From contig JAJZVZ010000001.1 of NCBI GenBank assembly GCA_021846945.1, forward strand, positions 1 through 64,000: a stretch of DNA of 64,000 bases. Reading direction: 5' to 3'. A program made the translations under genes and the position numbers. Below the pieces are notes generated by a model. The model had not been told where the DNA came from. It made no database searches and was given only the letters and a program-made list of their open reading frames with translations. The stretch is from Acidobacteriota bacterium (GTDB lineage: Bacteria > Acidobacteriota > Terriglobia > Terriglobales > Acidobacteriaceae). Below, piece by piece: positions 53,211 through 58,717 of this stretch; position 1 is the stretch's first letter, and the number at the start of each line of letters is the position of its first letter.

Positions 53211-54116
53211 CTATCCGGGCTCCGCGGTGATGCGCATCGAGATGTCGGCGGCTTTGGCTGAATGGGTAAGCGCGCCGACGCTGATGAAGTCCACGCCGGC
53301 CTCGGCATAGGCGCGGATGTTCTCAAGCGTGATGCCGCCGGAAGCTTCCGTGGGAATCCAGCGGCCGGGCTGGCCCTCTGTTTCCCGGTGGATGCGCTCC
53401 ACCGATTGACGCACCTCTTCCGGCGTCATGTTGTCGAGCAGAATGGCTTCAGCGCCGAACTTGAGGGCCTCTTCGATCTCATGCGGCGTGCGCACCTCAA
53501 CCTGGACGCGCTGGCCCTGCTTGCGTTGTTGAAGGGCGCGGGTCAACACCACAGGCACCCCGCCGCCCAGAGCGATGTGGTTGTTCTTGATGAGAATGCC
53601 GGAGGCGAGATCGAGACGGTGATTGGTGCCGCCACCGCAGAGCACGGCGTATTTCTCAAGGACGCGAAGGCCGGGGACAGTCTTGCGGGTGTCGAGTACG
53701 TGCGCATGCGTGCCTTGAATGGCGTCCACATATTTGCGGGTGAGGGTGGCGATGCCGCTGAGGTGTTGCAGCAGGTTCAGGATCACACGCTCGCAACTGA
53801 GGAGCACGCGGGCATTGTGGCGCACGACGGCCAGCACCTGTCCGCTGCGCACACGGACGCCGTCGAAGATTTCGGGATGGCTCACGACGTCGAAGCGGGT
53901 CTGCGCCTGCGGGCGGGCATCGAGGCGAGCAAAGATCTCAAGGAAACGAGGAACCGCGCCGAGGCCGGCCACCACCATCTCCTCGCGGGCAAGAATCGCG
54001 GCTGAGGCGCGCAGGTCGGGATCGATGGTGAGGTTGGTAGTGGCGTCGCCGGCGGCCTTGTCTTCAAGCAGGGCCTGCTCCAGCAATGCGTCGATGCGGT
54101 GGCTCTTCCAGTCCAT
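53211..54116 (-). CDS. nadC: Nicotinate-nucleotide pyrophosphorylase (quinolinate phosphoribosyltransferase)
   Basis: A 301-aa enzyme converting quinolinate and PRPP into nicotinate mononucleotide in de novo NAD synthesis. Motifs: LSCERVILNLLQHLSGIAT, LDTRKTVPGLRVLEKYAV, GGTNHRLDLASGILIKNNH and EASGGITLENIRAYAEAGVD. The length is normal. nadA and nadB are not in the window. Lies between valS and birA on the same strand. Confidence 0.96.
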   Translation of the reverse strand: MDWKSHRIDALLEQALLEDKAAGDATTNLTIDPDLRASAAILAREEMVVAGLGAVPRFLEIFARLDARPQAQTRFDVVSHPEIFDGVRVRSGQVLAVVRHNARVLLSCERVILNLLQHLSGIATLTRKYVDAIQGTHAHVLDTRKTVPGLRVLEKYAVLCGGGTNHRLDLASGILIKNNHIALGGGVPVVLTRALQQRKQGQRVQVEVRTPHEIEEALKFGAEAILLDNMTPEEVRQSVERIHRETEGQPGRWIPTEASGGITLENIRAYAEAGVDFISVGALTHSAKAADISMRITAEPG

Positions 54117-54161
54117 TTGTTTCCCTTTGGAAAACAGTTCACAACTTACAGTTCGCAGTTG

Positions 54162-57017
54162 TCAGTCCCTTGGCAGCGAGGCAAGAGCGGCGCAGGCTTT
54201 TTCGAGGAGCGTGCGCGTCTCGGATGCCTGCTTCTTGAGTCCCTCGATGACGTGCGACGGCGCTTTAGCCAGGAAGCTTTCATTGCTTAACTGGCGGTCG
54301 GCGGCGGCCACACCTTTTTCGTATTTGGCGATATCTTTTGTCAGGCGCTCGCGCTCGGCGGCGACGTCGATGGTGCGTTCATAGACGACCGCAGCGTCGA
54401 AAGCCGCTACACGATGCTTCGGCAAGCCGTCAGTGATTTGCGGGACGAAGCGGACCTCGCTTACACGTGCAAGACGTTCGACAACGTCGTGGTTTTCCTT
54501 AAAAGCAGTTTGCAGCTGCAGGTCTGCCAAAACTTCAATCGGGACCGTAGCCTTTTCTTCTACACCAATTTCCTTGCGCAGGGCTCGCACTTCGACAACG
54601 AGGGCCTGGAGCATATCCATGGCGAATCTTGCATCGTGGTCAGAGACAGACTCACCCCCCTGTGGGAAGCGAGTCAACGCGATTGACTTCGCAGGTGGAT
54701 TGCCATCATAGACTGCGTGCCATAGTTCTTCAGTCAGGAAGGGCATGAAGGGCGAAAGCAGCCTGAGCGCTGCTTCAAAAACACCAACCAGCGTGGTGAG
54801 AGCGGCCTTTGTCTTTGCCTTGTCCGCCGACTCGGAAAAATCGAGGCGGAGCTTGACGATCTCGATATACCAGTCGCAGAAGCTGCCCCAGAAGAACTGG
54901 TAGATGGCGTTGGCTGCGTCGTCATAGCGGTAGTTCTCGAGCGATTGGTTGACCTTGGCCGCGGTTGCATGGAGTTCGGCGACGATCCAGCGGGCTTCGA
55001 GCGGGGCATCTTTGGCAACCGCGGGCATAGAGCCGAGCGCGTCGGGATCGACCTTGATATCAACTTCCGCGGCCTTGTCCACATTCATGAAGATGAACCG
55101 CGCGGCGTTCCAGATCTTGTTGGCGAAGGCGCGGTAGCCTTCGGTTCTGGCCACATTGAAGGCGATGTCGGTACCGGGCGAGGCCATGGAGGCCAGCGTG
55201 AAGCGAACCGCGTCGGTGCCGTACTTCTTGACGATCTCGATGGGGTCGATGACGTTGCCCTTGGTTTTGGACATCTTTTCGCGGTTGGCGTCGCGGACCA
55301 GTGCGTGGATATACACCTCCCGGAACGGCACCGACTCGGCAAGAGAGCGCGGGCTCCCGTCGGGCATCGGAACGTCGGCTGCGAACCAGCAGCCGAGCAT
55401 GATCATGCGGGCGACCCAGAAGAAGAGAATGTCGAAGCCGGTGACGAGGAGGCTGGTGGGATAGAAGGCGTCGAAGTCCGCGCGATCTGTTGTTCCCTCC
55501 CAGGTCTCAGAATCGAGACATGGGGTACCCAAATTGGTTCTTTGGGTGCGCGGTTTCGTATTGGGGACGATGCCGGGCCAGCCGAAGACGGAGACGGGCA
55601 ACAGGCCGGAGGAGAACCAGGTGTCGAGAACATCGGTCTCCTGCTCGATGTTTGCCGAGCCGCAGTGGACGCAGGCCGTTGGGTCCTGGCGGGCGACAGT
55701 GATCTTGTGGCAGTTGGCGCAGTGCCATGCCGGGATGCGATGGCCCCACCAGAGCTGGCGCGAGATGCACCAGTCGTGGATATTCTCCATCCAGTTCAAA
55801 TAGGTCTTCTTGTACATCTCCGGCGTGAACTGGACGTGACCTTCCTTGACCGCGGCGATGGCTTTATCGGCCAACGGCTGAATCTTGACGAACCATTGCG
55901 TGGAGAGACGCGGCTCGACAACGGTCTTGCAGCGGTCGCAGTGGCCCACATTGTGGGTGTAGTCCTTGATGCCGGCCAACAGGCCCTGCGCTTCGAGGTC
56001 GGCGACGATTTCCTTGCGCGCTACGTAGCGATCGAGGCTGGCGTACCTGCCGCCTTCGGCGTTGATGTGGCCCGTCGAGTCCATCACGTTGATGGAAGGC
56101 AGATGATGCCGCTCGCCGAGAGCGAAGTCATTGGGATCGTGAGCGGGGGTGACCTTGACGGCACCGGTGCCGAACTCGCGGCTGACCCACTCGTCGAGAA
56201 TGATGGGGATCGGGCGATTCACGAGCGGCAGGCGCAGCTTTTTGCCGTGCAGATGCAGGTAACGCTCGTCCTCGGGATGGATGGCAACGGCCACGTCGCC
56301 GAGCATGGTTTCAGGGCGCGTGGTGGCAACGGTCAGAAACTCGCCGGTGTCGTTGCCGCCGTCATCTACGACCGGATAGCGGATCTCCCAGAGGTGGCCT
56401 TTGTGCTCGTCGTAGACGACTTCAAGGTCGCTGATGGCGGTCTGGCAGCGCGGGCACCAGTTGACGATGTATGCGCCACGGTAGATGAGCCCCTGCTCGT
56501 AGAGGCGGACGAAGGCTTCGCGAACGGCAACGGAAAGCCGCTCGTTCATGGTGAAGTACTCGCGCTGCCAGTCGACGGAGGCGCCGAGGCGCTTCATCTG
56601 GTCGAGGATGGCGCCGCCGTAATGCCGCCGCCACTCCCAGACGCGCTCGACGAAGGCTTCGCGGCCAAGCTGCTCGCGGGATGTGCCTTCGGAGACCAAC
56701 TGGCGTTCGACCATCATCTGCGTGGCGATGCCGGCGTGGTCGGTTCCAGGCACCCACAGAGCGCGGCGGCCGGTCATGCGCCGCCAGCGGGTGAGGATGT
56801 CCATCTCCGTCTGATTGAGCATGTGGCCCATGTGGAGTCGGCCGGTGACGTTGGGAGGCGGCAGCAGAATCGTGAAGGCGGACTGGCCGTCTGAACCCTG
56901 GTCTTGGATGGGCACAGTGGGGATGGGCTGGGCGAAGAGGTTCTCGCTCACCCAATAACCCGCCCAGTGATCCTCAATGGCGGTGGGGTCGTAGGCTTTC
57001 GGCAGTTCGTGAGGCAT
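54162..57017 (-). CDS. valS: Valyl-tRNA synthetase with an in-frame insertion
   Basis: A 951-aa class I synthetase. LPPPNVTGRLHMGHMLN (HIGH-type motif) and KMSKTKGNVIDP (KMSKS) are present; PGTDHAGIATQ and SLLVTGFDILFFWVARM are ValS-typical. The anticodon-binding domain and the C-terminal coiled coil (about 885-945) are complete. Between VFGWP and FYPTS about 27 extra residues occur (about 482-512). They are encoded by 55486-55570, which contains an inverted repeat and reads like a dispersed non-coding repeat. The frame stays open. A terminator-like hairpin lies upstream at 57160-57191. Confidence 0.96.
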   Translation of the reverse strand: MPHELPKAYDPTAIEDHWAGYWVSENLFAQPIPTVPIQDQGSDGQSAFTILLPPPNVTGRLHMGHMLNQTEMDILTRWRRMTGRRALWVPGTDHAGIATQMMVERQLVSEGTSREQLGREAFVERVWEWRRHYGGAILDQMKRLGASVDWQREYFTMNERLSVAVREAFVRLYEQGLIYRGAYIVNWCPRCQTAISDLEVVYDEHKGHLWEIRYPVVDDGGNDTGEFLTVATTRPETMLGDVAVAIHPEDERYLHLHGKKLRLPLVNRPIPIILDEWVSREFGTGAVKVTPAHDPNDFALGERHHLPSINVMDSTGHINAEGGRYASLDRYVARKEIVADLEAQGLLAGIKDYTHNVGHCDRCKTVVEPRLSTQWFVKIQPLADKAIAAVKEGHVQFTPEMYKKTYLNWMENIHDWCISRQLWWGHRIPAWHCANCHKITVARQDPTACVHCGSANIEQETDVLDTWFSSGLLPVSVFGWPGIVPNTKPRTQRTNLGTPCLDSETWEGTTDRADFDAFYPTSLLVTGFDILFFWVARMIMLGCWFAADVPMPDGSPRSLAESVPFREVYIHALVRDANREKMSKTKGNVIDPIEIVKKYGTDAVRFTLASMASPGTDIAFNVARTEGYRAFANKIWNAARFIFMNVDKAAEVDIKVDPDALGSMPAVAKDAPLEARWIVAELHATAAKVNQSLENYRYDDAANAIYQFFWGSFCDWYIEIVKLRLDFSESADKAKTKAALTTLVGVFEAALRLLSPFMPFLTEELWHAVYDGNPPAKSIALTRFPQGGESVSDHDARFAMDMLQALVVEVRALRKEIGVEEKATVPIEVLADLQLQTAFKENHDVVERLARVSEVRFVPQITDGLPKHRVAAFDAAVVYERTIDVAAERERLTKDIAKYEKGVAAADRQLSNESFLAKAPSHVIEGLKKQASETRTLLEKACAALASLPRD
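55486..55570 (-). repeat. Probable dispersed-repeat insertion inside valS
   Basis: The segment contains the inverted repeat CCCA-GTCTC/GAGAC-TGGG (55499-55524, one mismatch) next to GGGTACCCAAATTGG. On the other strand it reads TTTGGGTACCCCATGTCTCG, a type of sequence I associate with short repeats in Acidobacteriota intergenic DNA. It encodes residues (NTKPRTQRTNLGTPCLDSET) with no counterpart in ordinary ValS. Exact borders are estimated. Confidence 0.55.
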
Positions 57018-57159
57018 GATGGCTATTGAACGATCCCCGAGAGCGTGCGCCGGCCCTTGTTTTCCAAGGGTTTCGGTCGAAAGGGACTACCCTCACTTTA
57101 GCAGATAGCGTTCACGCGCTTCCCACTGGGTGAATGGCAATGCTTTGCGCGGCGTCATG

Positions 57160-57191
57160 AAAAAGGCCGCTCCCGGCGGGGGAACGGCCTC
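57160..57191 (-). terminator. Rho-independent terminator after the bamD-like gene
   Basis: On the minus strand AGGCCGTTCC and GGAGCGGCCT (plus-strand 57181-57190 and 57164-57173) form a stem with one mismatch-like pair, followed by TTTTT (57160-57164). It lies 24 bases after the stop of the bamD-like gene and separates it from valS. Confidence 0.85.
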
Positions 57192-57214
57192 TTCTGCCTG
57201 TATCTTCTCGGCGA

Positions 57215-58717
57215 TTAGAACGGATTGAGCTTGTCCAGTCCCTTTTTCTTCTTCTTCTTGCTGGAGGATTGACTGCTCAGATCGGGCTTGGGCGCCTTCG
57301 CCTTTTTCTTCTGACCGGTCACGATGGGCTGCACATCCGAAACCATACCGGGCTTGATCTCGTTTACCTGGACGGGCGCTTCGACGGGCTTTTGGGCGGA
57401 AGGAAGCGCAGTGTTTGTGGGACCAACCGGCTTTACCAATGCATTCGGGTCGGTCGCGGTGGTTCCGGAGGGTGCGCTTACGATGGAAACGCCCACTCCA
57501 GTTCCATCCCCGGCCACGCCTGTCGCGAGCGGCGCCTGAGAGGGTTGGTCGCTGCGCGGCGGCTCATTCGCGCCTGTCGGCTTTGCGGCAGCTTCCGTTT
57601 CCGTGGGCTTACCCGCATTAACAGCATCTTTGAAGAGGGTGATGTTTTGCTTCGTGATATCCGGAGCGAGGACGCGGGTCGGATCAGTCAGCGTCGGCTC
57701 ACCCACATGGACTGCTTCAACCACGGTCGGGCCACGCCGGATGAGACCGAGAATGTTATCGGTAAAGTGGAGGGGTTGACGGCTGCGCTCCTCAGCGTCA
57801 CTTTCAGCAATTGCGGCCTGGGTGGGTTCAGGGATGGCCCGGTTCATGGCTACAAGGCGGTCACGCGCATCCTCCACGTGCGGAGCCATCGGATAGCGGG
57901 TAATCACCTTATCGTAGGCCGCGGCAGCCTTGTCCTGGTAGACGCTGACAAGCCGCTCTCTGACCGCGCTGGGAAGATTGGGAGCGATCTGGATATTGTG
58001 GGCCTCGCCGGCGTAGCAATCGCCGATGCCGATCAGCACCTGGTCGCTTTTGGAGTAAAGCGGATAGGTGTCCGCGACGGTCTCCAACCGGGCAATTGCG
58101 GCGGGATAGTTCATGCGGCTTTCATAGTAGAAGCCAATCTGGGCCTCCCGCTCCGCCAGTACTTCCTGAACGTCGCGGAGGCGCTGCTTGGCGCGCGGCA
58201 CCAGAACGGAGTCCGGAAACTGATTGATCATCTTCCGGTACTGCGCTTCAGCCTCCTCGGCGTTGGTGGGGTCGCGGTCGGGTTTCTCCATCTGCTGGTA
58301 GTAGATGTCGGCAACCTTCATCTGCGCCTCGGCGGCTTCCGGCGCATTGGGGAAGAAAGTGATGAAGTCCTCGTACTCCGCTTCAGCCTGGGTGAGGGCG
58401 GCTGAACCGCCTTCCTTGTACCATGTATCGCCTACGGAGAGCTTGGCGCGCATCCGGTATTCCGATTCGGGATAGGTGTTGAGCAGGGTCTGCAGGTCGA
58501 GCCGGGCTTCGTCGTAGTGTCCTTTCTTGAGCGCGATCATGGCCTTGTCGTAAAGCGCCTTATCGGGCTGTTTTGAGTTCACATTGGCCAATGGGTTTGC
58601 GCTCAAGTCGAAGGGATTCTTCTGCTTGTGTTTTTTGCCCCAGGCGTTGGCCGGACCCTGGATCAGGGTCAGGACCGCTAGAGCCGCGACGGCAAATTTC
58701 AACTGCAACCGGTTCAT
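57215..58717 (-). CDS. BamD-like outer-membrane assembly protein with C-terminal extension
   Basis: A 500-aa exported protein. A signal sequence (LKFAVAALAVLTLIQGPANA) is followed by tetratricopeptide-like repeats (about 45-300), with YDKAMIALKKGHYDEARLDL, YPESEYRMRAKLSVGDTWYK and MINQFPDSVLVPRAKQRL resembling BamD/YfiO. Unlike BamD of proteobacteria there is no lipobox Cys, so it is not an obvious lipoprotein. Residues about 300-480 are Pro/Ala/Thr-rich and probably unstructured; the end is Lys-rich (SSSKKKKKKGLDKLNPF). The start at 58717 has GAGGG upstream. The function in outer-membrane protein assembly is inferred from the repeat pattern. Confidence 0.8.
   Translation of the reverse strand: MNRLQLKFAVAALAVLTLIQGPANAWGKKHKQKNPFDLSANPLANVNSKQPDKALYDKAMIALKKGHYDEARLDLQTLLNTYPESEYRMRAKLSVGDTWYKEGGSAALTQAEAEYEDFITFFPNAPEAAEAQMKVADIYYQQMEKPDRDPTNAEEAEAQYRKMINQFPDSVLVPRAKQRLRDVQEVLAEREAQIGFYYESRMNYPAAIARLETVADTYPLYSKSDQVLIGIGDCYAGEAHNIQIAPNLPSAVRERLVSVYQDKAAAAYDKVITRYPMAPHVEDARDRLVAMNRAIPEPTQAAIAESDAEERSRQPLHFTDNILGLIRRGPTVVEAVHVGEPTLTDPTRVLAPDITKQNITLFKDAVNAGKPTETEAAAKPTGANEPPRSDQPSQAPLATGVAGDGTGVGVSIVSAPSGTTATDPNALVKPVGPTNTALPSAQKPVEAPVQVNEIKPGMVSDVQPIVTGQKKKAKAPKPDLSSQSSSKKKKKKGLDKLNPF

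Follow-up and report, generated by a model that had tools for sequence, protein, structure and literature searches.

Palindromic repeats that are read as part of a protein are of a kind already known, both from REPs located in open reading frames and from the palindromic elements of Rickettsia (RPEs). One survey reports REPs within open reading frames, tRNA synthetase genes among them, and describes a leaning of such copies toward proteins that act on nucleic acids (PMC3733652), which is also seen in the genome treated here. The same survey records that recB of two Xanthomonas species carries different REPs at nearly one site, and it also describes Y1 transposases flanked by inverted repeats (TIRYT) in T. 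saanensis, K. versatilis, A. capsulatum and G. mallensis (PMC3733652). Canonical REPs are defined by a GT[AG]G motif at the foot of the hairpin (PMC6006769).

Here we describe an insert in the valyl-tRNA synthetase gene (valS) of an Acidobacteriaceae bacterium, located in a window of 64,000 nucleotides, the whole stretch of DNA that was analysed. The original prediction, made from the letters of the window, was that a dispersed repeat of non-coding type is translated in frame within valS. Copies recovered by BLAST, pattern search and covariance models support this reading of what the insert is. With a probability of roughly 0.9, we consider the insert to be a REP-type palindromic element of Acidobacteriaceae, mobilised by RAYT transposases, that landed in frame in an insert-tolerant surface loop of ValRS.

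Table 1 Features of the valS insert (coordinates in the window) and further proteins of the same genome with an in-frame element
Feature	Position or locus	Strand	Basis
valS, valyl-tRNA synthetase	54162..57017	-	one open frame, 951 aa
Enlarged loop of 36 aa, residues 482-517; congeners without an insert have 12 aa	55467..55574	-	genus loop census; pLDDT
17-nt filler, GTCCCCAATACGAAACC	55552..55568	-	diverged copies in about nine other lineages' inserts
21 extra nt, GCGCACCCAAAGAACCAATTT, in this species' insert only	55531..55551	-	sequence, fold, comparison with L160
REP-type element, 33 bp, GGGTACCCCATGTCTCGATTCTGAGACCTGGGA	55498..55530	-	covariance model R1, 52.8 bits, E 3.6e-8; genome copies
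5' hairpin arm, CCCATGTCTC	55515..55524	-	fold, covariance model
3' hairpin arm, GAGACCTGGG, one mismatched pair against 5' arm	55499..55508	-	fold, covariance model
3' linker, element to host codons RADFDA	55485..55497	-	alignment; weakly conserved 3' tail of genomic copies
Element inside ArgS	L245
Element inside Era	L043
Element inside TrmD	L056
Element inside RNase R	L054
Element inside PcrA-like helicase	L050
Element inside Lhr-like helicase	L045
Element inside PriA	L252
Element inside family-4 uracil-DNA glycosylase (UDG)	L237
Element inside CopA-like P-type ATPase	L246
Element inside NagZ-like hydrolase	L249
Element at PurF N-terminus	L052

An expanded loop in valyl-tRNA synthetase

The window ValS matches the ValRS of T. 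thermophilus (1gax) with an E value of 4e-204, and its named relatives are Acidobacteriaceae MAGs. Because the remaining ValS matches in the genome reach only some 32% identity and fall on open frames of other lengths, valS appears to be the single-copy and sole ValRS gene of the cell. Weak matches to the window ValS (about 32-43% over parts, frames of 842-865 aa) were found in three congeners (L223, L224 and L225, from G005, G021 and G060), in which valS may have been replaced by a distant ValRS. Between GWP, which ends at residue 481, and the conserved FYPTSLLVTGFD block, which starts at residue 518, the loop reads GIVPNTKPRTQRTNLGTPCLDSETWEGTTDRADFDA. The corresponding loop is exactly 12 aa in 35 congeners (consensus NITAETRADFDA), against 36 aa here, which makes a net gain of 24 aa (72 nt). 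The extra residues had been correctly placed before FYPTSLLVTGFD by the original prediction, which put their number somewhat too high, at about 27. Alignment to 1gax breaks off after residue 471 of that protein and is taken up again at 474, leaving window residues 483-512 without a counterpart, and in this distant ValS the inserted residues are, as anticipated, not conserved. An AlphaFold2 model built with 43 aligned ValRS sequences (mean pLDDT 88) gave values below 50 at residues 487-509, inside the insert, with confident flanks adjoining. The model predicts a disordered loop, the disorder in turn suggests exposure on the protein surface, and these two properties are likely the reason the insert is tolerated.

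The valS element lies two substitutions away from the consensus GGGTGCCCCAGGTCTCGATTCTGAGACCTGGGA, in which the head GGGTGC precedes a hairpin with a stem of 10 bp and a loop of 6 nt; the in-frame reading of the valS copy is (L)GTPCLDSETWE. The inverted repeat noticed at the outset is real, as none of 200 dinucleotide shuffles folded as well as the hairpin (z = -3.5, plus strand). The GGGTACCC core reported alongside it also exists; it proved to be the head GGGTGCCCC altered by a single G-to-A substitution, and the palindrome is secondary. The 21 extra nucleotides hold an inverted element head, GCACCCAAA, perhaps left over from another unit that was since deleted, and they form a second small hairpin with TTTGGGT. 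The 17-nt filler is identical at 14 of 17 positions in L160. A MITE of a DDE insertion sequence would have terminal inverted repeats and a clear target duplication; the unit here is a single hairpin with a sharp 5' border, and no clear target duplication was seen in valS.

Dispersed copies of the element and its transposase

The expectation of similar DNA elsewhere in the genome was borne out. BLAST of positions 55456-55600 identified nine other places, each matched over the 33-bp core (E 9e-9 to 2e-4). The pattern GGGTGCCCCAN{8,38}TGGGA occurs 21 times in the genome, and its reversed control gave no match. Covariance models at E<=0.1 detected 38 places with R1 and 15 with R2, and we put the copies of the 33-bp unit in this genome at about 30-50; within the window, the covariance model found no second copy. 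Units measure 33-48 bp and form subfamilies of 33 and 43 nt; the stem of a second subfamily is 14 bp long (GGGTGCCCCATCCTTTCCGC...GCGGAAAGGGTGGGA). Pairing is kept through changes on both sides of the stem in both subfamilies (94% of cells paired, covariation greater than in all 500 shuffles), although relatedness among copies may inflate these values. Nearly all copies have GGGTGC as their head, and the canonical GTAG/GTGG guide is absent from the hairpin foot in this family. In 20 copies of one congener the 5' border of the unit is sharp at GGG and the 3' tail is weak.

Within the genus, the R1 model matches 25 of 25 genomes, with from at least 4 to at least 122 matches each. Restriction of the element to the genus was considered and rejected, as a scan of the family Acidobacteriaceae recovered it in 47 of 120 genomes (34 of 79 genera). 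In none of 16 genomes from other families did the same model have a match.

Seven matches to Y1_Tnp (PF01797) are present in this genome. An intact RAYT gene (C277:9712-10236) is located between inward-facing inverted copies of the element, and its product combines a PF01797 match (E 1.3e-7) with the HUH motif PEHVHLL and the catalytic YxxxNP in the form YLHRNP. A frameshifted RAYT on C92 (L180, G000:C92) is likewise enclosed by inverted elements and, together with them, is a decaying copy of the mobile unit. Relatives of the C277 RAYT occur in 72 of 79 congeners. Thirty RAYT loci were read, and 28 of them are flanked by elements (facing inward on both sides in 21, on one side in 7) while two have none; the two flanks of a locus often have the same stem subtype. 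The repeat is therefore a REP-type element accompanied by its transposase. From this arrangement we infer that the element is non-autonomous and mobilised by the RAYT (Y1/HUH) transposases that it flanks. Such a transposase would cut the hairpin in single-stranded DNA and copy it to new sites, and one copy would have landed in frame in a ValRS surface loop that tolerates extra residues. Points against this explanation are the head, which departs from the canonical guide, the filler of the ValS insert, which the unit lacks elsewhere, and the state of the host genome, a 339-contig assembly.

In-frame copies in other proteins

Copies read in context, combined with a family-model scan of open frames, revealed at least 11 further proteins of this genome with an in-frame element (Table 1). 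Including ValS, 9 of the 12 insert-bearing proteins act on nucleic acids. The inserts of Era, ArgS and TrmD are stretches without counterpart in solved structures (PDB alignments). Element-made C-terminal tails were also observed on a GNAT acetyltransferase (L046), a HypC-like protein (L057) and an XdhC-like protein (L240). We suggest that selection would purge out-of-frame and damaging insertions, and for this reason the survivors would be those sitting in disordered loops. The ValS peptide would then be translated without having a function of its own, and it is likely a tolerated selfish insertion.

Occupancy of the same loops in other species

A census of the ValS loop in 54 readable congeners gave 16 with the element, 3 with other inserts (L161, L164 and L199) and 35 with none. 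This occupancy, together with the 11 other proteins, speaks against the earlier view that such insertions are rare in core genes, as far as this organism is concerned. Hairpin subtypes at the loop differ between lineages. The ValS loop of L199 (= L072) holds another repeat, of CATCCTGAGCGAAG-type DNA (CHPER...), and that of L161 (= L069) holds one of GGGGCTTTAGCCCC type.

Repeats are often misassembled, and known ribosome bypass sites include hairpins. On this general background, to which no result obtained here adds support, it could be proposed that the insert is left untranslated through bypass or is an assembly error. However, the element is in frame and stop-free in 16 of 16 carrier congeners from separate assemblies, and likewise in other genes, making an untranslated or artefactual insert scarcely credible.

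Retention of the frame in all ValS copies, and perfect or near-perfect stems in several of them, could alternatively reflect recruitment of the hairpin or the peptide for a function, such as control of the valS mRNA or a new enzyme surface. We judge such recruitment very improbable, as sequence, length and presence of the element vary freely among close relatives, the insert is predicted to be disordered, unrelated repeats fill the same loop in L161 and L199, and Rfam gave no match at E<=0.1 over 54000-57500.

Loops of two other proteins were compared across the genus. A recognisable element was present in 9 of 30 Era loci, and its occurrence in both orientations (2 forward, 7 reverse) speaks for separate insertions there. 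Of 29 readable TrmD loops, 4 carry the element and others carry different repeats. The TrmD loop before RVILLSAQG (L316-L345) is hypervariable in the genus, containing REP hairpins as well as VLRSAQDD-type and REQGTGNREQ-type translated repeats.

History of the ValS insert

On a ValS tree built without the loop, presence of the element costs 11 changes, at least 7 of them forced by well supported branches, and sisters with and without the element alternate. Such a distribution would be expected if the loop were a true target hotspot, a preferred site that received independent RAYT insertions in many species; the variation of hairpin subtypes by lineage and the uninserted loops, which are all 12 aa, alike and free of any trace of past insertion, agree with this proposal. 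However, about nine lineages agree in the exact nucleotide at which the element starts, in its orientation and in its frame, and have it behind a related 17-nt filler, a coincidence that points to common ancestry or exchange. Different placement is limited to L151/L162, L165, L166 and the non-REP inserts of L161/L199. We accordingly regard a hotspot as rather unlikely, and the common filler weakens the case for fully independent insertions.

The filler copies are mutually more alike than shuffles (0-1 of 5000), also with codon position kept. The filler is not host-like and is absent from the mobile unit seen elsewhere, which means that the bare unit did not simply land in ValS. An assignment of the left 23 nt to host sequence up to the target site was rejected, since nucleotides 7-23 are in most lineages no more host-like than shuffles. 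The common filler and start of about nine lineages therefore suggest that there was probably one older ValS insertion, inherited and then exchanged or lost in a patchy manner. Sequences close to the insert show no clear excess of similarity among carriers (328 of 2000 permutations as high), so that a long exchanged tract is not demonstrated and short tracts would still be compatible with the result.

The hairpins behind the common filler belong to several subtypes. Although the sequences flanking the hairpin on either side are nearly the same in L154 and L155, the hairpins themselves are AGGTCTCGATTCTGAGACCTGGGA and AGGTCCCTCGCATTTGGGGACCTGGGA, respectively. The simplest reading of these alleles suggests that the ValS hairpin has at times been swapped in place by another genomic copy. 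Extending this, the ValS loop, and probably those of Era and TrmD as well, may serve as a lasting docking site whose hairpin is repeatedly overwritten by genomic REPs through RAYT or gene conversion. We offer this as a tentative possibility, with the odds somewhat against it; if true, a loop of an essential protein would track the current REP population of its genome.

Discussion

Judged from sequence comparison, the insert is best described as a member of an Acidobacteriaceae REP-type family whose head is GGGTGC and which has cognate RAYT genes; copies of this family are apparently carried in frame by many core proteins. The system amounts to a dense natural experiment in the conversion of mobile non-coding DNA to protein, in which one element family and its transposase have given at least a dozen in-frame protein inserts in one genome, with dozens of related species that have or lack each of them. 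It would allow movement of REPs by new landing to be tested against overwriting in place, and would likewise help to test what determines whether a given loop of an essential enzyme can bear a junk peptide. For annotators, the results are a warning that alignments of core acidobacterial proteins include translated repeat DNA. Nothing in the literature searched described the GGGTGC head, this group of hosts, such abundance in the core genes of a single genome or the apparent turnover of hairpins in place at one loop.

Comparison with the described systems places the element closest to REP/RAYT (TnpA-REP, REPtrons). Like these, it occurs as short dispersed single hairpins and as an inverted pair around a PF01797 gene encoding HVH and YxxxNP (PMC3733652). 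Its size and copy number are those of REPs (a palindrome of 20-65 nt in many dispersed copies), and a RAYT gene is flanked by it, usually as an inverted pair. The GGGTGC head differs from the GT[AG]G of canonical REPs (PMC6006769), and, unlike in known REPs, core genes often contain in-frame copies and many species share one occupied loop. A Y1 transposase between inverted repeats is shared with the TIRYT of Acidobacteria, although the motif printed for TIRYT, GGGGWSAS, does not fit this element (PMC3733652). Relative to the two Xanthomonas recB genes of the same source (PMC3733652), one and the same loop here holds the element in 16 species, and alleles that are otherwise nearly identical differ in their hairpins. 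Finally, the Rickettsia palindromic elements are similarly palindromic repeats read in frame in unrelated protein genes (PMC10969869). Those elements measure about 150 bp and belong to Rickettsia, whereas the present units measure 33-48 bp, belong to Acidobacteriaceae and have an identified transposase gene.
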